NCBI GenBank assembly: GCA_000739535.1
Contig: DF820475.1
Coordinates: 68,637 to 132,636, forward strand
Source: Candidatus Vecturithrix granuli
GTDB taxonomy: Bacteria; Moduliflexota; Moduliflexia; Moduliflexales; Moduliflexaceae
Length of the DNA stretch: 64,000 bases
Direction: 5' to 3'
Positions 2,474-56,145 of the stretch are shown here, in pieces. The position numbers and the translations under genes are program-made. The notes below the pieces were generated by a model. The model saw only the letters and a program-made list of their open reading frames with translations. It did not search any database and was not told the DNA's origin. Every line of letters begins with the position of its first letter. The first letter of the stretch is position 1.

Positions 2474-2757
2474 TTAGCCCACTGAACACACGGAATACAC
2501 GGAAATTTTTTCAGATTTCCCCAACCAGATGGAGTCCACCTCGGAGGTGGACTCCATTTCTAAGAAGCTGTTTTAAAAGTTTGCAGGTGAGGAGTGCGAA
2601 AGCTCTGCTTTCGCTGTCAAAGCAGAGCTTTGACACTCCTGTTCACCTCTCTCGAAATGTCCGTTGCATGGACTTTTAAAACAGCTTCTAAGAATAATGC
2701 TATACCGAAAATTTCTCATTTTCTTTTTTCGTGTATTCCGTGTGTTCTGTGGGCTAA
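2474..2757. repeat. Long inverted-repeat element with two nested palindromes
   Basis: Outer arms 2474-2505 and 2727-2757 are near-perfect inverted copies beginning TTAGCCCAC, followed by the word ACACACGGAATACACG. Inside lie a perfect 14 bp-arm hairpin (2529-2542 / 2544-2557, core GGAGTCCACCTC) and a complete 125 bp MITE (2564-2688). The composite fills the whole space between mfd and sdaA. A relative of the outer arms occurs at 50413-50619. Confidence 0.8.
2564..2688. mobile_element. MITE copy 1 (125 bp, TIR GAAGCTGTTTTAAAAGT)
   Basis: A non-coding element with perfect terminal inverted repeats GAAGCTGTTTTAAAAGT (2564-2580 and 2672-2688), flanked on both sides by TAA, which looks like a 3 bp target-site duplication. 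The interior is itself a hairpin: GGAGTGCGAAAGCTCTGC at 2591-2608 mirrors GCAGAGCTTTGACACTCC at 2622-2639. A near-identical copy lies at 11664-11789 and a decayed one begins at 51059. No transposase is present in the window. Confidence 0.85.
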
Positions 2758-11426: not shown

Positions 11427-11663
11427 ACGTACTGTGATTTATAGAGAACCTCGCGCCAGAGCAAGACTTTGACACGAGGAATGTTGTTTCATTATTTTGT
11501 GATATGGTGACGTTCACCTATGAGGCTGCTTTCACCAGAAATCTGTGTCAATTTCATTGAATTATGTTGAAAGTGTACAAGAATTGTCAAGCTTTTCCCG
11601 TATAACTCACCAAAATATCATACGCTTATGCTCTGAAGACTTGTGCAAACCTACACAATCTTA
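11427..11663. other. Upstream region of UspA gene pair, no gene seen
   Basis: AT-rich region upstream of the minus-strand UspA pair and ahead of the MITE. It should contain the promoter for that pair, but I cannot pick out a convincing -35/-10 pair on the minus strand. No coding frame of note. Confidence 0.4.
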
Positions 11664-11789
11664 GAAGCTGTTTTAAAAGTTTGCAGGTGAGGAGTGCGAA
11701 AGCTCTGCTTTTGCTGTCAAAGCAGAAGCTTTGACACTCCTATTCACCTCTCTCGAAATGCCCGTTGCATGGACTTTTAAAACAGCTTC
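11664..11789. mobile_element. MITE copy 2 (126 bp)
   Basis: Second full copy of the element at 2564-2688: the same terminal repeats GAAGCTGTTTTAAAAGT (11664-11680 and 11773-11789) and the same internal hairpin, with only a few substitutions and a one-base insertion. It is flanked by TTA on both sides (11661-11663 and 11790-11792), again a 3 bp duplication, differing from the TAA at copy 1. That supports transposition rather than segmental duplication. Confidence 0.85.
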
Positions 11790-11829
11790 TTAAGCTGGTA
11801 AGTAAGTATGAAGAATGTTTTTGAAGTTT

Positions 11830-41704: not shown

Positions 41705-42376
41705 GTGATTACTGCTGTTCAAAAGCCGTTTGAAGAAATTATTACGATGATTCAGGGGTACGAAAAACTCTTGATCCTCGGCTGCGGCTCCTGCGTGACG
41801 GTCTGTATGGTCGGAGGCGAAAAAGAAGTGGGCATTCTGGCCTCTACGCTGCGCCTGGCGCATAAGAAACAAAGCCGCTTCATGGAGATTCAAGAAGCCA
41901 CGATTACCCGCCAGTGCGATCGTGAATTTTTTGATGAGGTCAAAGATAATATCGCCTGGGCTGACGCCGTGTTATCCTTAGCCTGCGGCGTAGGCGTACA
42001 ATTTTGCAGCGAAGTGTTTCCGGGCAAGCGCGTGCTGCCGGCCCTGAACACCAAATTCTACGGTACAACCGAGCAGCAGGGAATTTGGACAGAGCGCTGC
42101 GGCGGCTGCGGAACCTGTGTGCTGGCTGATTTTGGGGGAATTTGTCCGATTGCGCGTTGCTCCAAAAGTCTGCTGAATGGCCCTTGCGGAGGGTCTGCCC
42201 ATGGCAAATGCGAGGTTGACCCGGACAATATTGACTGCGCCTGGCAGCTTATCTATGATCGCATGACCGCCCTGGGACTCTTGCACAAACTAGAAGAAAA
42301 TTATCCGATCAAAGATTGGAGCGCCGGACGCGACGGCGGCCCGGGCAAAATCGTCAGAGAAGATATGTTGTTATAA
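41705..42376 (+). CDS. metV: MetV, zinc-binding partner of methylene-THF reductase
   Basis: A 223-residue protein of the MTHFR C-terminal-type (MetV) family. The N-terminal half has LLILGCGSCVTVCMVGGEKEV; the C-terminal half carries the Cys-rich set ERCGGCGTCVLADFGGICPIARCSKSLLNGPCGGSAHGKCEV, matching the zinc/iron-sulfur motif of MetV. In acetogens MetV binds MetF and connects it to electron donors (established for Moorella-type complexes). The start is a GTG at 41705 with no evident ribosome-binding site; the repeat ends just upstream. It lies 15 bases before metF. Confidence 0.9.
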   Translation: MITAVQKPFEEIITMIQGYEKLLILGCGSCVTVCMVGGEKEVGILASTLRLAHKKQSRFMEIQEATITRQCDREFFDEVKDNIAWADAVLSLACGVGVQFCSEVFPGKRVLPALNTKFYGTTEQQGIWTERCGGCGTCVLADFGGICPIARCSKSLLNGPCGGSAHGKCEVDPDNIDCAWQLIYDRMTALGLLHKLEENYPIKDWSAGRDGGPGKIVREDMLL

Positions 42377-42391
42377 GCAGAAAGAGCATGT

Positions 42392-43348
42392 ATGAATACT
42401 AACGCATTCAAAGCCGGAAGTCGTTTGGAAAAAGTGCTGTATGCCGGACATTTTGCAGTCACGTCAGAGCTTGGCCCGCCGAAAAGCGCGGATGTGGATG
42501 TGATTCTCACAAAGGTCGGCTATCTAAAAGGTTACGTAGATGCGGTGAACATCACCGATAATCAAACCTCGATTGTGCGCATGTCCTCGCTGGCGACCGG
42601 ACTGATTGCCATGCAGCATGGATTGGAGCCGGTCGTGCAGATCACCTGTCGCGACCGCAACCGGATTGCGATTCAGAGCGATGTACTCGGAGCTTATGCC
42701 CTGGGGATCAGAAATATCCTCTGTTTGACCGGGGATCATCAGAAATTTGGCAATCATCCGACCTGCAAAAACGTGTATGACCTGGATTCAATCCAACTTA
42801 TCCACACCCTGAAAACCATGCGGGATGCGAAGACCTTCCTGTGCGGCGACGAGATCAGGAACAGCAAAAAATCACCGATTATGGAGCCGCGCATTTTTAT
42901 CGGCGGGGCCGCCAATCCTTTTGGCGATCCCTTTGAATTTCGGGTGATCCGCTTAGCCAAAAAAGTTAAAGCCGGCGTGGATTTCATCCAAACTCAATGT
43001 ATTTACGACATGGAACGCTTTGAAAAATGGATGGCTCTGGTACGTGAACGCGGATTGCACGAGCAAGTCAAGATTCTGGCTGGCGTCACGCCTTTGAAAT
43101 CAGCCAAAATGGCAATGTATATGCGCGACCATGTGGCTGGCTTAAAAATCCCGGATGTTTATATTGAACGGTTAATACAAGCAAAAGACGCCGCTGCCGA
43201 AGGGATTAATATCTGCGTTGAACAAATTCAACACCTTCGCACCATCGCGGGCGTGGCCGGCGTGCACATCATGGCAATTGAATGGGAACAGCGCGTGCCG
43301 GAAATTGTCGAAAGGGCTGGCTTGCTGCCGAGGCCAGAAGTTAAGTGA
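42392..43348 (+). CDS. metF: Methylenetetrahydrofolate reductase
   Basis: A 318-residue MetF TIM barrel that reduces methylene-THF to methyl-THF through FAD. Diagnostic blocks: FAVTSELGPPKSADVD near 22-37, AVNITDNQTSIVRMSSLATG near 52-71, RDRNRIAIQSDVLGAYALGIRNILCLTGDH near 88-117, and VDFIQTQCIYDMERFEKWM near 196-214. There is no NAD(P)H-binding extension, consistent with a bacterial MetF supplied by partner subunits. It follows metV closely, and the hdrC-like gene follows after a palindrome. Confidence 0.95.
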   Translation: MNTNAFKAGSRLEKVLYAGHFAVTSELGPPKSADVDVILTKVGYLKGYVDAVNITDNQTSIVRMSSLATGLIAMQHGLEPVVQITCRDRNRIAIQSDVLGAYALGIRNILCLTGDHQKFGNHPTCKNVYDLDSIQLIHTLKTMRDAKTFLCGDEIRNSKKSPIMEPRIFIGGAANPFGDPFEFRVIRLAKKVKAGVDFIQTQCIYDMERFEKWMALVRERGLHEQVKILAGVTPLKSAKMAMYMRDHVAGLKIPDVYIERLIQAKDAAAEGINICVEQIQHLRTIAGVAGVHIMAIEWEQRVPEIVERAGLLPRPEVK

Positions 43349-43448
43349 CTAAAACGACTAAAGTTTATAAGTGTCTAAAATTGTAAGATCTTGTGATTTT
43401 AGCCCACTTGTCACTTTAGTCATTTTAGTCACTTTAGTCACTTTAAAT
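43344..43448. repeat. Palindromic GTCACTTTAGTCA repeat overlapping the end of metF
   Basis: The metF stop region AAGTGACTAAAACGACTAAAG is mirrored by CTTTAGTCATTTTAGTCACTT at 43411-43431, with an extra GTCACTT unit. The right arm is open in frame and would add a spurious Val/Leu/Thr-rich leader to the next gene if the first ATG at 43371 were used. Confidence 0.75.
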
Positions 43449-43931
43449 ATGGAAACAATCACACTCACGAAACTTGATCCGAATTTTAAATTCGAGCTTG
43501 CCGAAAAGCCCGGCGCGGCCAATATTCGCAAATGCTATGCCTGCGGCACGTGTACGGCCGGATGCCCGGTGTTTCACGTGGAGCATACCTATAATCCGCG
43601 CAAACTGATTCATAAGATTCTGCTCGGTATGCGCGAACAGGTACTCAGTTCCAAGGTAATCTGGCTCTGTCTGCGCTGTTATACCTGTACGGCCAATTGT
43701 CCGCATGACGTTGATTTTTCCAATATCATGATGAGCCTGCGCGAGATGGCGATTGAAGAAGGCTATGCGCCGCCGGAAATCCTTGAGCAAATTGACTTCC
43801 TGACGACTGCTGCCAATGATTTACGTAAGGATTGTATTAATCTCTTCTTGCATGAAGGCGACATAACAAAAGAGCAAATCCGGGAGAATTTCGAAAAAAT
43901 GCTGCAACAGATAGAGAAACCGGGTTTTTGA
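43449..43931 (+). CDS. hdrC: HdrC-like iron-sulfur subunit
   Basis: A 160-residue protein with two [4Fe-4S] motifs: CYACGTCTAGCP near residues 27-38 and CLRCYTCTANCP near 68-79, followed by the HdrC pattern HDVDFSNIMMSLREMAIEEGY. HdrC carries electrons between HdrA and HdrB in heterodisulfide-reductase-type complexes. I place the start at 43449 (METITLTK) because the longer frame begins within a repeat. The last five residues EKPGF and the stop codon are supplied by an AGAAACCGGG palindrome at 43915-43947, an unusual repeat-derived C-terminus. No HdrB gene is present in the window. Confidence 0.88.
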   Translation: METITLTKLDPNFKFELAEKPGAANIRKCYACGTCTAGCPVFHVEHTYNPRKLIHKILLGMREQVLSSKVIWLCLRCYTCTANCPHDVDFSNIMMSLREMAIEEGYAPPEILEQIDFLTTAANDLRKDCINLFLHEGDITKEQIRENFEKMLQQIEKPGF

Positions 43932-43947
43932 CAAAAACCCGGTTTCT
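43915..43947. repeat. AGAAACCGGGTTTTT palindrome overlapping the hdrC stop
   Basis: AGAAACCGGGTTTTT (43915-43929) and AAAAACCCGGTTTCT (43933-43947) are exact complements with a GAC loop. The stop TGA of the hdrC-like gene lies in the loop, and the 5' arm encodes its last residues. Same repeat as 6531-6563. Confidence 0.8.
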
Positions 43948-43972
43948 TCCAGGTTTGCATGGGTTCGAAAAT

Positions 43973-44845
43973 ATGGAAAATAATAAAGTGGGCGCCGTGA
44001 TGGTGGTTGGAGCCGGGATTGCCGGAATTCAGGCATCTTTGGATCTGGCGGACAGCGGCTATAAAGTCTATCTGGTGGAGAAAGATCCATCCATTGGCGG
44101 TGTGATGACGCAACTGGATAAAACCTTTCCCACCAACGACTGCTCGATGTGCATTGTCTCCCCCAAATTGGTCGAGTGCAGCCGCCATGCTAACGTTGAA
44201 TTGTTAACATATTCAGACATCGAGAAGGTACAGGGGGAAGCCGGACATTTCACGATTCGGGTCAATAAAAAAGCGCGCTCCGTTGATCCGGCGAAGTGCA
44301 CCGGCTGCCGCGAGTGCATGACAGCCTGCCCGGTCAGCAAGCGCATTCAGATCCCGGAAACCATAGAGCAGGAAGAGACTGAAGAAACGCACATCACGGA
44401 TCAGATTATCGCGAAATACGGCGGTAAAAAACAGGCCTTGATTATGATCCTCCAGGACGTGCAGAACCGTTTTCATTATCTGCCTGAAGCCGCCCTGCGC
44501 CGGATCAGTACGCGCTTAGAACTCTCGTTTGCAGAAATTTACGGCACTGCCAGCTTTTATAAAGCTTTCAGCCTTGAACCGAGGGGACAACACATCATTC
44601 AGGTCTGCATGGGCACAGCCTGCCATGTGCGCGGCGCACAACGCATTTTAGAAGAATTCGAACGCCTGTTGAGCATCAACACCGGACAGACCACCGAAGA
44701 TCGCCTGTTTACTTTGGAAACCGTCAATTGTCTGGGAGCCTGCGCGCTGGGGCCGATTGTGACGGTTGACGAGGGCTATCACGGCAATATGACCCCGGGC
44801 GGAGCGGCGAAATTGATTGACAGATATGCCAAGAATAAAAGATAA
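43973..44845 (+). CDS. Fusion of HdrA N-terminal half with NuoE-like [2Fe-2S] domain
   Basis: A 290-residue fusion. Residues 1-120 are the FAD half of an HdrA: VMVVGAGIAGIQASLDLADSGYKVYLVEK at 9-37, DCSMCIVSP near 55-63, LLTYSDIEKVQG near 77-88, and the first ferredoxin motif CTGCRECMTACP near 108-119. There HdrA sequence stops. From about residue 140 a NuoE/HoxE thioredoxin-like domain follows (ALIMILQDVQNRFHYLP; cysteines in VCMGTACHVRG and NCLGACALGP), the usual [2Fe-2S] entry to NuoF. The missing HdrA half is fused to the NuoG-like protein at 47169. I chose ATG 43973; earlier frame lies in a repeat. It precedes the NuoF gene. Confidence 0.87.
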   Translation: MENNKVGAVMVVGAGIAGIQASLDLADSGYKVYLVEKDPSIGGVMTQLDKTFPTNDCSMCIVSPKLVECSRHANVELLTYSDIEKVQGEAGHFTIRVNKKARSVDPAKCTGCRECMTACPVSKRIQIPETIEQEETEETHITDQIIAKYGGKKQALIMILQDVQNRFHYLPEAALRRISTRLELSFAEIYGTASFYKAFSLEPRGQHIIQVCMGTACHVRGAQRILEEFERLLSINTGQTTEDRLFTLETVNCLGACALGPIVTVDEGYHGNMTPGGAAKLIDRYAKNKR

Positions 44846-44846
44846 C

Positions 44847-45058
44847 CTCACCCCCGGCCCTGCCTCCAAAGGAAAGGGGAGAAAAGTTCCCTCCTCCTTT
44901 GGAGGCAGGGCTGTTAAGTTCTACGCAATTTTGTCATCTCGACTTCGCTCGATGACCGGAACACCGGGCGTCGAGCGAAGTCAAGACGGCCTTTCTGACG
45001 AGAACTTAATAGCCATAGCCCTGCCCTTTGGGGGAGGGTTGGGGAGGGGGTAAAAACA
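44847..45058. repeat. Nested composite repeat (GTTAAGTTCT element inside a CCCTGCC repeat)
   Basis: Outer layer: CTCACCCCCGGCCCTGCCTC and the facing GCCCTGCCCTTTGGGGGAGG (44848-44912 and 45017-45050). Inside sits an element with ends GTTAAGTTCT (44913-44922) and AGAACTTAA (45001-45009), and inside that a GTCATCTCGACTTCGCTCGA / TCGAGCGAAGTCAAGA palindrome (44932-44986). The same stack recurs at 53419-53640. Confidence 0.8.
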
Positions 45059-45060
45059 GC

Positions 45061-46989
45061 ATGAACAGATTAGGATCCAGCCAGGAACTTGCACAGCTAC
45101 GCGCTACGTTTGAAACGCAAAGCTCGCAAAAACCGATTGAGGTGATTATCTCAACCCATGCGTCTTGCTGTCTGTTGCGAGGCAGTCAGGCGGTGGCCGA
45201 CGCATTTCAGGCAGAACTTGCCCGCGCCGGGTTGACGGAACAGGTCAATGTGCGTTTGACCGGTTGCCTGGGGTTTTGTGAGATCGAACCAATGGTGATT
45301 ATCGCGCCGCAAAAGGAGTGCGAAAGTTCTACTTTCGCGAGCAAGGAGTGCGAAAGTTCTACTTTCGCAAGTAATGTGCTCTATCAAAAAGTGACGCCCG
45401 AAGATGTCAGACCGATCATCAGCGACACTATTCAGCAGCAGCAGATTATCGAACGCCTGCTCTATGTGGAGCCATTGACAAAAGAAAAAAAGGTCGGTAA
45501 AGCGGATGTGTCCTTCTATCAAAAACAGTATCGCCTGGTGTCGGGGTTGAATGAATATCTCAATCCACGGCGGATTGAAGATTACATCGCCATCGGTGGG
45601 TATTCCGCCTTAGCAAAGGTGTTGGACAGCCTGTCGCCGGAAGAGGTGATTGAAGCCATCAAAGCCTCTGGTCTGCGCGGCAGAGGTGGCGGCGGTTTTC
45701 CGACAGGTCGCAAATGGGAAACCTGTCGTAAGGCTGAAAGCGAAGACGGTGTGCGCTATATCATCTGTAATGCCGACGAAGGGGATCCGGGCGCATATAT
45801 GGATCGTTCGGTACTGGAAGGCAACCCGCATTCGGTGCTGGAAGGCATGATTATCGCTTCGTATGCGGTTGGATCGCACGAAGGCTATGTGTATGTGCGC
45901 GCTGAATATCCGCTGGCGGTCGAACATCTGAATCTGGCCTTAGCGCAGGCCGAAAACTATGGCTTGTTAGGACACAATATTTTGGGAAGCGGACACGATT
46001 TCAGCATTCACGTGGCTAAAGGGGCCGGAGCCTTTGTGTGCGGCGAATCAACCGCGTTGATGGCCTCCCTCGAAGGCCGCGTCGGGCGACCGCGCGCCAA
46101 ATACGTGCATACCGTTGAACGCGGCTTGTGGAATAAACCGAGCTGCCTCAATAATGTGGAAACCTTTGCCAATGTCCCGCGCATCCTGGAAAAAGGGGTT
46201 GACTGTTTCCGGCAAATCGGCACTGAAGGCAGCAAGGGCACGAAAATTTTTTCCTTAGTGGGCAAAATTCATAACACCGGCCTGGTAGAAGTACCGATGG
46301 GAATTTCTCTGCGGGAGATCATTTTTGAGCTTGGCGGCGGCATCCCCAAAGGCAAAAAATTTAAAGCCGTACAGACCGGCGGCCCTTCCGGCGGCTGCCT
46401 GCCGGAAAAGTTGTTGGATTTACACGTTGATTTCGACGAATTGAGCAAAGCCGGGTCTATGATGGGTTCGGGCGGCATGATCGTGATGGATGAGGACACC
46501 TGCATGGTGGATGTGGCCCGCTATTTCCTCAATTTTCTCAAAGGCGAATCCTGCGGCAAATGTGTGCCCTGCCGCGAAGGGGTCCGGCGCATGTTACAAA
46601 TTTTGGAACGCATTTGTCACGGGCAGGGGCAGGAGGAGGATTTAGCCACCCTGGAAGAACTGGGCGAATATCTCAAAGATTCCGCCTTATGCGCGCTGGG
46701 GACGACCGCAGCCAATCCGGTGCTCAGCACCTTAACTTATTTCCGGGATGAATATCTGACTCATATTCGTGAAAAATATTGCCCGGCTGGCGTGTGTAAG
46801 GACTTGTTTCAATTCAAAATCGCCCCGGAGGCCTGTACCGGCTGCGGCGTATGCCGCAAACAGTGCCCGACCGCGGCCATCAGCGGCGAACGCAAAGCGG
46901 TGCATATTATTGATCAAGCGACCTGCATCCGCTGCGGCGTGTGCTATGATGTCTGCCGCTTTGATGCAATTCGAAAAGCACGATTATAA
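45061..46989 (+). CDS. NuoF-like NADH dehydrogenase subunit with ferredoxin tail and repeat insertion
   Basis: A 642-residue NuoF/HoxF/HydB-type protein. It has an N-terminal thioredoxin-like [2Fe-2S] domain (HASCCLLRGSQ, TGCLGFCEIEPMV), the FMN/NADH domain (GLRGRGGGGFPTGRKWE near 203-219; CNADEGDPGAYMDRSVLEGNPH near 238-259; GAYVC-like GAGAFVCGESTALMASLEG near 320), the N3 [4Fe-4S] motif SCGKCVPCREGVRRM near 495-510, and two C-terminal ferredoxin motifs CTGCGVCRKQCP and CIRCGVCYDVC. It would oxidise NADH or reduce NAD. Residues 85-104 are two copies of KECESSTFAS, coded by a tandem 30-base palindromic repeat inserted in frame. ATG 45061 chosen; the frame before it is repeat. Confidence 0.92.
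   Translation: MNRLGSSQELAQLRATFETQSSQKPIEVIISTHASCCLLRGSQAVADAFQAELARAGLTEQVNVRLTGCLGFCEIEPMVIIAPQKECESSTFASKECESSTFASNVLYQKVTPEDVRPIISDTIQQQQIIERLLYVEPLTKEKKVGKADVSFYQKQYRLVSGLNEYLNPRRIEDYIAIGGYSALAKVLDSLSPEEVIEAIKASGLRGRGGGGFPTGRKWETCRKAESEDGVRYIICNADEGDPGAYMDRSVLEGNPHSVLEGMIIASYAVGSHEGYVYVRAEYPLAVEHLNLALAQAENYGLLGHNILGSGHDFSIHVAKGAGAFVCGESTALMASLEGRVGRPRAKYVHTVERGLWNKPSCLNNVETFANVPRILEKGVDCFRQIGTEGSKGTKIFSLVGKIHNTGLVEVPMGISLREIIFELGGGIPKGKKFKAVQTGGPSGGCLPEKLLDLHVDFDELSKAGSMMGSGGMIVMDEDTCMVDVARYFLNFLKGESCGKCVPCREGVRRMLQILERICHGQGQEEDLATLEELGEYLKDSALCALGTTAANPVLSTLTYFRDEYLTHIREKYCPAGVCKDLFQFKIAPEACTGCGVCRKQCPTAAISGERKAVHIIDQATCIRCGVCYDVCRFDAIRKARL
45313..45372 (+). repeat. Tandem in-frame palindromic repeat inside nuoF
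   Basis: Two copies of a 30-base unit (45313-45342, 45343-45372) with core GCGAAAGTTCTACTTTCGC. The same word occurs in an intergenic palindrome at 56010-56089 and, in related form, as the interior of the MITEs. Unit length is a multiple of three, so the frame is kept and each adds KECESSTFAS. Confidence 0.85.
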
Positions 46990-47004
46990 CTTGTGAGGTG
47001 CCTC

Positions 47005-47172
47005 ATGACCACCCATGATCAACATGACATCATCCGGTCTGTAGAAAACGGTGAATGGCAGTCTGTAGAGAATTTTGAAGACGTCAAAAAAAGCTTGATA
47101 CAGGCTGCATCCAAAACAGCGTTAAAGAATTATCGTATTAATGTCAGAATTTCAAGGAATCCGGGAAAGTGA
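47005..47172 (+). pseudogene. Truncated CopG/BrnA-type antitoxin remnant
   Basis: A 55-codon frame with GAGGTG upstream: MTTHDQHDIIRSVENGEWQS..., then LIQAASKTALKNYRINVRIS and RNPGK before TGA. The sequence matches the N-terminal and ribbon start of BrnA/CopG-type antitoxins (ESFENGEW..., then KDKRINIRIS in typical members), but it stops where the ribbon-helix-helix helices (usually EGIPYQTLI) should follow. The TGA overlaps the GTG start of the next gene (GTGA). No toxin gene is adjacent. It is probably the remnant of a toxin-antitoxin locus caught inside the redox operon. Confidence 0.6.
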
Positions 47173-50100
47173 ATATTACAATTAATGGCAAAAGCGTTCA
47201 GGTTGAAGAGGGGCAGACGATCCTTGAAGTCGCCAAAGACCTGAATATCGGCATTCCGACCCTCTGCTTTCACTCTGCGCTCGAAGCTTATGGCGGCTGC
47301 CGCTTATGCGTGGTTGAGGCCCGGCGCGGCAGGTGGTCGAAACTGGTCACGTCGTGCAATTACGAAGTCTGGGACGGATTGGAAGTCTTGACGAATTCCG
47401 AGCGCGTTCATAAAAGCCGTAAAATGACCGTCGAACTATTATTGGCGCGCTGCCCGGAAGTCGAAGCGCTGCAACGCCTGGCGCGCGCCTATAAAATCAG
47501 CGAGCCGCGTTTCCCCAAAGAGCAGGATGATTGCGTTTTATGCGGCTTGTGTGTGCGCATCTGTCAGGAGCGTATGGGGGTCGGCGCGGCTAGCTTTGTA
47601 GGACGCGGCGCGGAAGTTCGCGTTGACACGCCGTACAGCCGAGGCAGCGAGGTCTGCATCACCTGCGGTGCGTGCGTGAGCGCCTGTCCGACGCAATCCA
47701 TTCGCCTGAACAGCGTATTTCCGCAAAAACTTGTACCGCAAAAAGCGGAATTCGAGCTGGGGTTGAAAGAACGCCCGACCATCTACATCCCTTTTACCCA
47801 GGCGCTGCCGAATGTGCCGGTGATAGATCGCAGCAATTGCGTCCATTTTTATAACGGCGCGTGTAAAACCTGTCAGGAGATCTGCCCGGCCGAGGCCATT
47901 GATTACACCCAGGAAGATGAAGCCGTGGAGCTTGACGTTGGCGCGGTCATCTTAACGCCCGGATTTTGCCTGTACGATGCGGCTCAGAAACCGCAATACG
48001 GCTATGCGCTGTATCCGAACGTTGTTACCAGCTTGCAGTTCGAACGCCTTCTCTCTGCCAGTGGGCCGTGCATGGGGGAAGTACGACGTCCTTCGGATCA
48101 GCGGATTCCCCATCGCATTGCTTTTATCCAGTGTGTGGGTTCCAGAGAAACGGAACACAACTTTTGTTCTTCCGTGTGCTGCATGTACGCCATCAAAGAA
48201 GCCATCATCGCCAAAGAACATGAAAAAGACGTGATGTGCGATATTTTTTACATGGACATCCGCGCGTATGGTAAGGGTTTCGACGCCTATTACGATCGCG
48301 CCAAAGAGATCGGGATCCACTTCACCCCCTGCCGTCCTTCAAAAATCGAAGAGATTCACGCCAATCACAACCTACTCATCACGTACATTGAAGAAGATGG
48401 AACCTGCCAGCGCAAAGAATTCGAGATGGCCGTGCTGTCCGCCGGATTTCAACCGCCGGAACAGGTGCAGGAGTTGGCAGACAAATTTGGGCTGGCGTTG
48501 AATCAGCATGGCTTTGCCGTGACCGATCCCTTTGATCCGGTCGCCACATCGCGCAAAGGGGTATATGTGTGCGGCCCATTTTCCGAACCGAAAGATATCC
48601 CCGAAACCGTAGTCGAAGCCTCAAACGCCTCATCGCGTGCTATGATTGACCTGGCGGAGGTGCGCGGCACCCAGATTGTCGAACATCCGCTGCCTCCGGA
48701 GCGGGATGTACGCGGAGAACCGCCGCGCATCGGCGTCTTTGTCTGCCATTGCGGTCGTAATATCGGCGCCTATGTGGATGTACCCTCGATTGCGGACTAT
48801 GCCAAAACGCTCCCCCATGTCGTGTATAGCACGGATACACTCTACACCTGTTCTTCGGACACACAGGTCTTCATCAAAGACGCCATTCTCGAGCACCATC
48901 TGAATCGCATTGTTGTCGCCTCCTGTTCGCCGCGCACGCATGAACCGCTGTTCCAGGAAACCATCCGCGAAGTCGGACTCAATCCGCATCTCTTTGAAAT
49001 GGCGAATATCCGCGATCAGTGCTCCTGGGTGCACATGTTTGAGCATGACTCAGCAACCGCAAAATCCAAAGATCTGGTCAGAATGGCAGTTGCAAAATCG
49101 GCGTTGACCGAACCGCTGATTTCCATCCCGCTCGACGTGACGGCCAAAGCCTTAGTGCTCGGCGGCGGGGTCGGCGGCATGACCGCCGCGCTTGGGATTG
49201 CGAACCAGGGCTACGAGGTCTTTCTGGTCGAAAAAACCGCCAATTTAGGTGGAAATGCCCTGAAGATCGAACACGATTTGTACGGCAATGATGTCAGAAA
49301 ATATCTTAAAGCCCTGCAAAATCAAGTCCGGACTCATCCGTTGATCACAGTATTTACCAATGCCCAGATTGCTAAAGTTGACGGATTTATCGGTAACTTT
49401 GTGAGTACGATCGAGACGCGGAACGTTATGCCAAAGCAAGCTTTGGCACTCCAGACGCAGCAGACAGAGGTGAAACACGGCGTGGTAATCGTTGCTACTG
49501 GCGGCAGTGAACATGCGCCGACAGAATATCTGTACGGAACCAATTCCCGCGTGAAAACCCTGCTTGATTTGAGCGAGGCTCTGGCAACTGGCGAGTTTAC
49601 GGTTCCTGATACGGTGGTGATGATTCAGTGTGTCGGGTCGCGCGAACCCGATCATAATTATTGCAGCCGCATCTGCTGCGCCGGGGCCATTAAAAATGCG
49701 ATCCGCATGAAAAAGATGAATCCTGACGCAAACATTTTCATTCTGTATCGCGACATCCGCACCTATGGCTTTCGCGAAGAATATTACGGCGTCGCCCGCG
49801 ATCTAGGGATCAACTTTATTCGCTACACATTGGAACGCAAACCGGGTGTGACCGCAGAGAATGGAAACTTGACGGTCAGCGTGTATGATGCGATTCTGGA
49901 CGCAACATTGGAAATCTCAACGGATTTGCTGGTGTTAAGCAGCCGGATCGATCCGAACCCGGATAATGACCACATTTCCCAACTCTTGAAAGTGCCCTTA
50001 AATAGCGAGAAATTCTTCTTAGAGGCGCATGTCAAACTGCGTCCGGTCGAATTTGCGACCGATGGGGTCTATGTCTGCGGCTTAGCCCACTATCCTAAAG

Positions 50101-50408
50101 ATATCAAAGAAACGATTTCGCAGGCCATGGCGACCGCCGGACGGGCTGCCACGGTGTTGAGTAAAGACAAAATCGAAGCGGCCGGGAAGATTGCCTATGT
50201 CAACGCCGTGCGCTGCAGCGGCTGCGGCGCGTGTGTAACGGTCTGCGCCTATAATGCGATCAGCCTGGATAACGAACGGCAAATTGCGGTGATTAACGAA
50301 GCCTTATGCAAAGGCTGCGGCGCGTGCGCTGCCACCTGCCGCGGGAGCGCGATTAAACTGCATGGCTTTGAAGATGAACAGATTCTGCGTATGTTAAACG
50401 TGCTTTAA
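47169..50408 (+). CDS. NuoG N-terminus + HdrA C-half + complete HdrA fusion protein
   Basis: A 1079-residue protein. Residues 1-75 are a NuoG-like [2Fe-2S] domain (TLCFHSALEAYGGCRLC...TSCNYEV); CVLCGLCVRICQE (about 121-133) and CITCGACVSACP (about 165-176) are ferredoxin motifs. At about 200 the sequence joins HdrA exactly past its first ferredoxin: RPTIYIPFTQALPNVPVIDR, CKTCQEICPAEAIDYTQ, SLQFERLLSASGP, IQCVGSRETEHNFCSSVCC. A whole second HdrA begins near 520 (IGVFVCHCGRNIGAYVDV), with FAD motif VLGGGVGGMTAALGIAN near 662 and IQCVGSREPDHNYCSRICC near 818, and C-terminal ferredoxin motifs CSGCGACVTVC and CKGCGACAATC. GTG start at 47169 overlaps the preceding TGA. Confidence 0.88.
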   Translation: MNITINGKSVQVEEGQTILEVAKDLNIGIPTLCFHSALEAYGGCRLCVVEARRGRWSKLVTSCNYEVWDGLEVLTNSERVHKSRKMTVELLLARCPEVEALQRLARAYKISEPRFPKEQDDCVLCGLCVRICQERMGVGAASFVGRGAEVRVDTPYSRGSEVCITCGACVSACPTQSIRLNSVFPQKLVPQKAEFELGLKERPTIYIPFTQALPNVPVIDRSNCVHFYNGACKTCQEICPAEAIDYTQEDEAVELDVGAVILTPGFCLYDAAQKPQYGYALYPNVVTSLQFERLLSASGPCMGEVRRPSDQRIPHRIAFIQCVGSRETEHNFCSSVCCMYAIKEAIIAKEHEKDVMCDIFYMDIRAYGKGFDAYYDRAKEIGIHFTPCRPSKIEEIHANHNLLITYIEEDGTCQRKEFEMAVLSAGFQPPEQVQELADKFGLALNQHGFAVTDPFDPVATSRKGVYVCGPFSEPKDIPETVVEASNASSRAMIDLAEVRGTQIVEHPLPPERDVRGEPPRIGVFVCHCGRNIGAYVDVPSIADYAKTLPHVVYSTDTLYTCSSDTQVFIKDAILEHHLNRIVVASCSPRTHEPLFQETIREVGLNPHLFEMANIRDQCSWVHMFEHDSATAKSKDLVRMAVAKSALTEPLISIPLDVTAKALVLGGGVGGMTAALGIANQGYEVFLVEKTANLGGNALKIEHDLYGNDVRKYLKALQNQVRTHPLITVFTNAQIAKVDGFIGNFVSTIETRNVMPKQALALQTQQTEVKHGVVIVATGGSEHAPTEYLYGTNSRVKTLLDLSEALATGEFTVPDTVVMIQCVGSREPDHNYCSRICCAGAIKNAIRMKKMNPDANIFILYRDIRTYGFREEYYGVARDLGINFIRYTLERKPGVTAENGNLTVSVYDAILDATLEISTDLLVLSSRIDPNPDNDHISQLLKVPLNSEKFFLEAHVKLRPVEFATDGVYVCGLAHYPKDIKETISQAMATAGRAATVLSKDKIEAAGKIAYVNAVRCSGCGACVTVCAYNAISLDNERQIAVINEALCKGCGACAATCRGSAIKLHGFEDEQILRMLNVL
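49428..49452 (+). repeat. In-frame palindrome inside the NuoG-HdrA gene
   Basis: TGCCAAAGCAAGCTTTGGCA (49429-49448), followed by CTCC, has 9-base perfect arms. Read on the other strand it is GGAGTGCCAAAGCTTGC..., a relative of the MITE interior and of the nuoF insertion. It codes MPKQALALQ at residues 754-762, in a loop of the second HdrA domain. Confidence 0.65.
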
Positions 50409-55786: not shown

Positions 55787-56145
55787 GCGATACGGTATTG
55801 TAGTAAAAATGAGCAGTTCCTTAGAAAGAGTGGTGATTTCGATTGATCTTCATTCACGCCTGCCTGCTCAGGCAAACGTGAACCCATTTCTCAGTCAATC
55901 CGAGAAATCCAGAAAAACTGCTACTGCTGACGATTCATGCCCCTTGCTCTGTAAAAAGATTGGCAAAAAAGAAGGGTAGTGTCAAGCGAAAAATTTTTGT
56001 TACTGTATGCCGGAGTACAAAAGTTCTACTTTTGCGTGTCAATTTTCCGGCAAACACTCACTTACGAAAGTAGAACTTTCGCACTCCGGCCAGATGGCAC
56101 AGAATTATTTGCAGCAACAAAATTTCGTTTCGACAGATTTTTGTC
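55787..56145. other. Gap with GGAGTGC-family palindrome
   Basis: The convergent gap contains a palindrome (56010-56089): CCGGAGTACAAAAGTTCTAC mirrored by GAAAGTAGAACTTTCGCACTCCGG, whose right arm carries the same core as the nuoF insertion. A short ATTTCGATTGATCTTCATTCA segment near 55837 suggests degraded repeat. No gene. Confidence 0.55.

Follow-up and report, generated by a model that had tools for sequence, protein, structure and literature searches.

In-frame insertion of REPs into protein-coding genes is itself already known: intragenic REPs with GTAG or CGTC tags, giving rise to 'REP-decorated' proteins, are described in several genera, and more than half of them form dimers or groups that encode 20 to 30 residues (Di Nocera et al. 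2013, PMC3733652). The same article argues that REP insertions may be neutral in flexible parts of proteins and treats RPE-4 and RPE-6 as intragenic repeats of R. conorii. REPs are also reported in frame within the RAYT genes of subclass 2.4, in a peripheral region, and non-GTAG structures adjoin RAYT subclasses 2.6 and 3 (PMC6006769); the RAYT substrates described in PMC2817692 and PMC8266576 have a GT(A/G)G head.

The window (the whole 64,000-nucleotide stretch of DNA analyzed) contains two 30-bp units arranged head-to-tail at 45313-45372, which differ from each other at 2 positions (28/30 identical). The insert opens at codon 85 of ORF 45061-46989, leaves the frame intact, and encodes KECESSTFAS KECESSTFAS (residues 85-104), so that the coordinates and translation given by an earlier sequence-only reading are correct, as is its remark that each copy contributes one cysteine (two in total). 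That reading described a 30-base palindromic unit; the repeat is indeed 30 bp, but the element proper is a 24-base unit, GGAGTGC...CGC, starting at 45315. The host gene and the two copies are as follows.

45061..46989, + strand: host gene, predicted HydB/NfnB-type electron-bifurcating subunit of 642 aa, with Trx-like [2Fe-2S], FMN/NADH-binding 51K, and 4Fe-4S domains
45313..45342, + strand: in-frame 30-bp unit, copy 1 (AAGGAGTGCGAAAGTTCTACTTTCGCGAGC), residues 85-94, REP proper at 45315-45338
45343..45372, + strand: in-frame 30-bp unit, copy 2 (AAGGAGTGCGAAAGTTCTACTTTCGCAAGT), residues 95-104, REP proper at 45345-45368

The tryptic context in the predicted protein is K/ECESSTFASK/ECESSTFASNVLYQK. 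Both copies belong to the TTCTA subtype of the REP and share a 5' dinucleotide AA that is rare in the family (5 of 286 sites), and the second copy terminates in AAGT, as do several intergenic TTCTA-type members. They form a direct tandem in the same orientation, whereas most REP doublets of the genome are inverted, and no target-site duplication can be assigned at the window insert. A 19-base core has 8 matches in the window at up to 3 mismatches (2 of which are already counted sites seen on the opposite strand), whereas 100 dinucleotide shuffles average 0.06.

The host gene had been labeled NuoF-like, but by its domains and predicted fold it is nearest to HydB/NfnB-type bifurcating subunits and not to complex I NuoF. 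It has the domain order of such subunits (Trx-like 2Fe-2S, 51K FMN domain, SLBB, and 4Fe-4S), and its AlphaFold2 model (mean pLDDT of 89.6, from an alignment of 46 sequences) matches HydB/NfnB/StnB-type bifurcating subunits (8a6t_B, TMq 0.88; 9mqx_B, 0.89). The host gene has the Pfam domains and retains the positions that do not vary among 46 proteins, with the 2Fe-2S_thioredx match at 21.1 bits, under the Pfam cutoff of 24.8. Residues 85-103 are the sole segment with a pLDDT below 50, a low-confidence loop in a confident model, and are flanked by strands 79-83 and 106-108; mapping onto a structural model, as the sequence-only reading had proposed, thus places the insert between two strands of the N-terminal Trx-like [2Fe-2S] domain, where in the model it is most simply a floppy loop.

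Of 110 fetched loci that match the host gene, 98, one of them the genome's own copy (L031), span the N-terminal domain with no stop, and the other 12 were dropped. In the alignment of these homologous loci the 20 residues are missing from all 97 relatives that cover the domain, the best of which (L073, ∼65% identity) reads IINPQ-G-ILYREV at the site where the window reads IIAPQ-[20]-N-VLYQKV. By this comparison the 60 bases are an insertion relative to the relatives, all of which lie outside the genus, the nearest being ∼65% identical.

The inserted element is a REP-like palindrome, GGAGTGCGAAAGYTCTRCTTTCGC, made up of a 5' head (GGAGT) and a 7-bp stem (GCGAAAG/CTTTCGC). With up to 1 mismatch allowed, its core, GCGAAAGYTCTRCTTTCGC, has 268 places across the 8.38 Mb of the genome and a reversed-pattern control has 0, and neither core nor REP was found in three other genomes of the order (G001 to G003). 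The stretches fetched around most sites amount to 1,083,497 bases with overlaps removed, and contain 227 core places against the 268 genome-wide. The sites are chiefly intergenic and frequently form inverted doublets. The family conforms to a broad definition of REPs (imperfect palindromes of 20 to 60 bp with about a hundred or more copies, mainly extragenic, with inverted doublets of the BIME/REPIN kind, and a RAYT gene flanked by the same REP) but lies outside the canonical GTAG-REP superfamily, which has 5' GT(A/G)G at the hairpin foot: here GGAGT directly precedes 190 of 200 exact cores, and the bases further upstream are variable. As read by hand, the CTCTG form of the REP has no stops in six frames and the TTCTA form has none in five, with a TAG in one reverse frame. 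Being stop-free in nearly every frame, the REP should be harmless to translation when the net length inserted is a multiple of three.

The sequence-only reading also noted an intergenic palindrome sharing the core of the insert, which is an inverted REP doublet, and a resemblance of that core to the interior of a MITE, which likewise holds: two MITE-like elements contain the same GGAG-headed palindrome.

56012..56035, + strand: REP of the intergenic inverted doublet, left member, diverged
56064..56087, − strand: REP of the intergenic inverted doublet, right member
2563..2689, + strand: MITE-like element with terminal inverted repeats AGAAGCTGTTTTAAAAGT around a REP doublet, REP at 2591-2614
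11663..11790, + strand: second MITE-like element of the same makeup, REP at 11691-11714

The REP doublets inside these AGAAGCTGTTTTAAAAGT-ended elements are instances of one mobile element nested in another type. Among the 218 sites of a first sample, 27 are classed within a MITE-like element, and all 27 are of the CTCTG subtype.

The genome has 12 Y1_Tnp matches, one of which (G000:C18:825665-826210) codes for a RAYT flanked on either side by this REP, in both orientations; the REP (at up to 4 substitutions) is absent from the fetched loci of the other 11, which extend ∼1.5 kb each side. The C18 RAYT passes the NCBIfam model REP_Tyr_transpos NF047646 (94.5 bits, cutoff 80), matches Escherichia coli TnpAREP (4er8; E value of 4.5e-9), and retains an NHYH motif and a YLLYNP tyrosine motif, the roles of the motifs being as in PMC6006769. 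From its sequence and flanks, this HUH tyrosine transposase is probably what moves the GGAGT REP. A search of 289 genomes gives eight RAYT homolog loci from seven other genomes (27 to 39% identity), and GGA(G/C)T-headed palindromes lie beside the RAYT gene in seven of the eight (L251, on one side, L252, L253, and L255 to L258), the repeats of L254 instead starting GGAAG or GGACG. The homologs with such palindromes stem from other families than this genome's, and their flanks, read by eye in the eight loci, support a class of GGA(G/C)T-headed REPs. Locus L258 (G211, 2,680 bases) contains a distant RAYT homolog edged by a dense array of GGAGT/GGACT-headed palindromes.

The C18 RAYT gene sits amid a DISARM/Dpd/Druantia-like defense operon (L213:2275-15962; G000:C18:818000-837500). 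DISARM sets consist of a drmMI or drmMII methylase with drmA, drmB, and drmC. The genes neighboring the RAYT resemble DruE/DrmA-like (1,757 aa), DpdE/DrmD-like (988 aa), and DrmMI proteins, the last being a 1,515-aa ORF taken as 1,491 aa from a later start; the best PADLOC matches in the operon are DrmMI (3.8e-227), DpdE (1.5e-167, with DrmD at 1.2e-76), and DruE (1.1e-79, with DrmA weaker). No REP lies inside the C18 RAYT gene itself, and both its neighbors and the distant metabolic gene of the window have them.

Codon-score and open-frame criteria were applied to 290 sites (286 once overlaps are removed), a sample that takes in ∼85% of the core places and may therefore miss some decorated genes. 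Twenty-seven of the 290 lie within open frames, and the 25 clear ones are all in five genes: the window gene (2 sites), the three genes that surround the RAYT (21), and a gene on C19 (2). Two weak candidates were set aside, L154:4068 with 45 codons open before it and a codon score of −0.01, and L212:3874 with just 62 codons open on either side. When up to 4 substitutions are allowed, 28 copies grouped into 10 clusters are found in the five coding sequences, every one of them in frame, with 2 in the window gene, 2, 6, and 16 in the three RAYT neighbors (24 in total), and 2 in the C19 gene; no metabolic gene other than that of the window was found decorated. The C19 locus (L264:2190-5813, minus strand; G000:C19:253000-259500) codes for an HmaA/DrmD-like helicase followed by an HmaB-like methylase, and the helicase (1,207 aa) has an in-frame REP doublet in another frame, SAKALLS/PKQSFGTP.

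As in the window gene, homologs of two of the decorated defense genes lack the REP stretches. They are absent from 12 aligned homologs of the 988-aa helicase, of which L240 stops short of the second cluster, and from 3 of 3 homologs of the methylase, where not all edges are clean and L247 carries an insertion of unrelated sequence at one of the sites. Forward coding copies read ECES or ECQS in 13 of 15 cases, and reverse copies are AKAE-like (8 of 13) or (R/P)KQSF (5 of 13). The first copy of a cluster is in the ECES/ECQS frame in 8 of 10 clusters; the chance of at least 8 of 10 in any one frame is ∼0.01 by hand calculation and the clusters are possibly not independent, so we make no claim of frame preference.

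These copies share with REP-decorated proteins a genome-wide REP family that enters ORFs in frame, is often grouped, and has many members in DNA-processing genes, but the head here is GGAGT and not GTAG or CGTC, and the host in the window is an electron-bifurcating Fe-S enzyme, most of the other decorated genes being defense genes near the RAYT (PMC3733652). The C18 locus resembles described RAYT/TnpAREP REPtrons in having an HUH tyrosine transposase gene flanked by a dispersed REP and in its inverted doublets (Nunvar 2010, PMC2817692; PMC8266576; PMC6006769), and departs from them in its head, GGA(G/C)T where theirs is GT(A/G)G. The REPs within subclass 2.4 RAYT genes likewise keep the frame (PMC6006769), but here the RAYT is clean, and its neighbors and a distant metabolic gene are decorated. 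The string 'GGAG' does not appear in the main text of PMC2817692, PMC3733652, PMC3116915, and PMC8266576, and in the literature outside supplementary tables we found no GGAGT-headed REP class, no pairing of GGAG with RAYT or REPIN, and no RAYT inside a defense operon with decorated neighbors; the GGAGT head may nevertheless already be tabulated among the non-GTAG structures of PMC6006769, as part of a fringe already noted there.

The sequence-only reading compared the insert to the Rickettsia palindromic elements, and the likeness stands insofar as both are dispersed palindromes in frame within unrelated proteins (PMC10969869; PMC3733652). It does not extend to origin, since the element is the REP of a RAYT/REP system whose RAYT is flanked by the same REPs. 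RPE-1 type elements are ∼150 bp in the description given in PMC10969869, while the unit here is 24 to 30 bp, RAYT-linked, and in a nonrickettsial genome, and on account of its size the insert was not assigned to the RPEs. To call the insert an independent case is fair, although it is not a first, as in-frame REPs outside Rickettsia are published (PMC3733652, PMC6006769). The enterobacterial RU-1 to RU-3/ERIC repeats are also small mobile repeats translated in ORFs but are 103- to 168-bp MITE-like elements and not REP/RAYT, unlike the family of the insert (PMC2759123).

The best explanation of the tandem REP pair is that a copy placed by the RAYT in a loop was then duplicated, and that it is a tolerated selfish insertion and not an adaptation, a reading to which we give a probability of about 0.83. 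The RAYT encoded elsewhere in the genome would have placed one copy in the host loop, and a tandem duplication of the 30-bp unit would then have made the second; the shared rare AA and the same orientation suggest one insertion followed by duplication. A REP that is stop-free in nearly every frame, a net length that is a multiple of three, and a tolerant loop would together account for its persistence as a translated, presumably neutral insertion, and selection on the host gene would purge insertions of other net lengths. Counting against this are the GGAGT head, unlike GT(A/G)G, the direct arrangement of the window copies, the unusual 5' flank, and the lack of an assignable target-site duplication. 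A role for the insert, either as an mRNA hairpin adjusting how the operon is translated or how stable its message is, or as a cysteine loop serving as a redox-sensitive or interaction site, is improbable: its RNA forms a strong hairpin (−24.2 kcal/mol, z −4.43) and an Fe-S protein gains two cysteines, but any REP folds so, the RNAs of the intergenic doublet and of the RAYT flank folding well too, the same peptide occurs in unrelated helicases and methylases, and no relative has anything at the site.

Misplacement or miscounting of the repeat during assembly is less probable still. The genome is a draft of 21 contigs, in which some repeats have runs of N close by, with a completeness of 93.79 and a contamination estimate of 10.75, but the 60 bases keep the frame exactly between stretches of homologous coding sequence, and the two units are not identical (2 differences), although the copy number could nonetheless be wrong. 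REP copies are found on contigs C2 to C21, and their presence on both the window contig (C9) and the RAYT contig (C18) argues that these come from one organism. That the palindrome arrived within the 127-bp MITE-like element, or is what such an element left behind, has marginally lower odds again. The MITE interior contains the same palindrome, but 45313-45372 has no trace of the AGAAGCTGTTTTAAAAGT ends found at 2563-2689, for which reason a MITE-derived insert was rejected; moreover, the insert is TTCTA where all MITE-classed sites are CTCTG, and the palindrome is far commoner outside MITEs than inside. Least credible, to the point of being negligible, is that the 20 residues are native to the protein family and conserved in it, the case that the sequence-only reading had set against itself: the orthologs checked lack them throughout, and they match a dispersed genomic repeat.

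The window insert is an in-frame insertion of a REP with a head unlike the published GTAG and CGTC tags, within a central Fe-S redox enzyme. A RAYT lying among genes with 24 in-frame REPs constitutes a natural experiment, in which a nearby HUH transposase may remodel proteins without breaking them, and it makes testable both a shift in RAYT head recognition from GTAG to GGAGT and the use of REP peptides as marks of permissive loops. More tentatively, and at somewhat less than even odds, a GGA(G/C)T REP class with its own RAYT clade may extend across bacterial families, its copies in this genome having repeatedly entered coding sequence in frame, mainly in defense helicases and methylases around the RAYT. 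On that reading, either the RAYT and its REPs would be part of defense operon evolution, for example, through diversification of loop length, or the operon would tolerate insertions to an unusual degree, and the HydB-type enzyme would be an outlying case far from it.

The HydB/NfnB-type host gene is clustered (41705-50408) with MetF-like, HdrC-like, HdrA-NuoE fusion, and HdrA-like genes, a set suggestive of a bifurcating methylene-THF reductase complex. ORF 43928-44845 consists of an N-terminal HdrA piece fused to a NuoE/HoxE-like domain, and one match spans both parts in 6 of 80 relative loci. The gap preceding the host gene (44845-45060) contains more inverted repeat-like sequence, with motifs TTTGGAGGCAGGGC and TCGACTTCGCTCGA/GTCGAGCGAAGTC, apparently a separate repeat family. 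At its 5' end the HdrC-like ORF has four tandem copies of the 9-mer GTCACTTTA (43410-43445), and its true start probably lies downstream of them.
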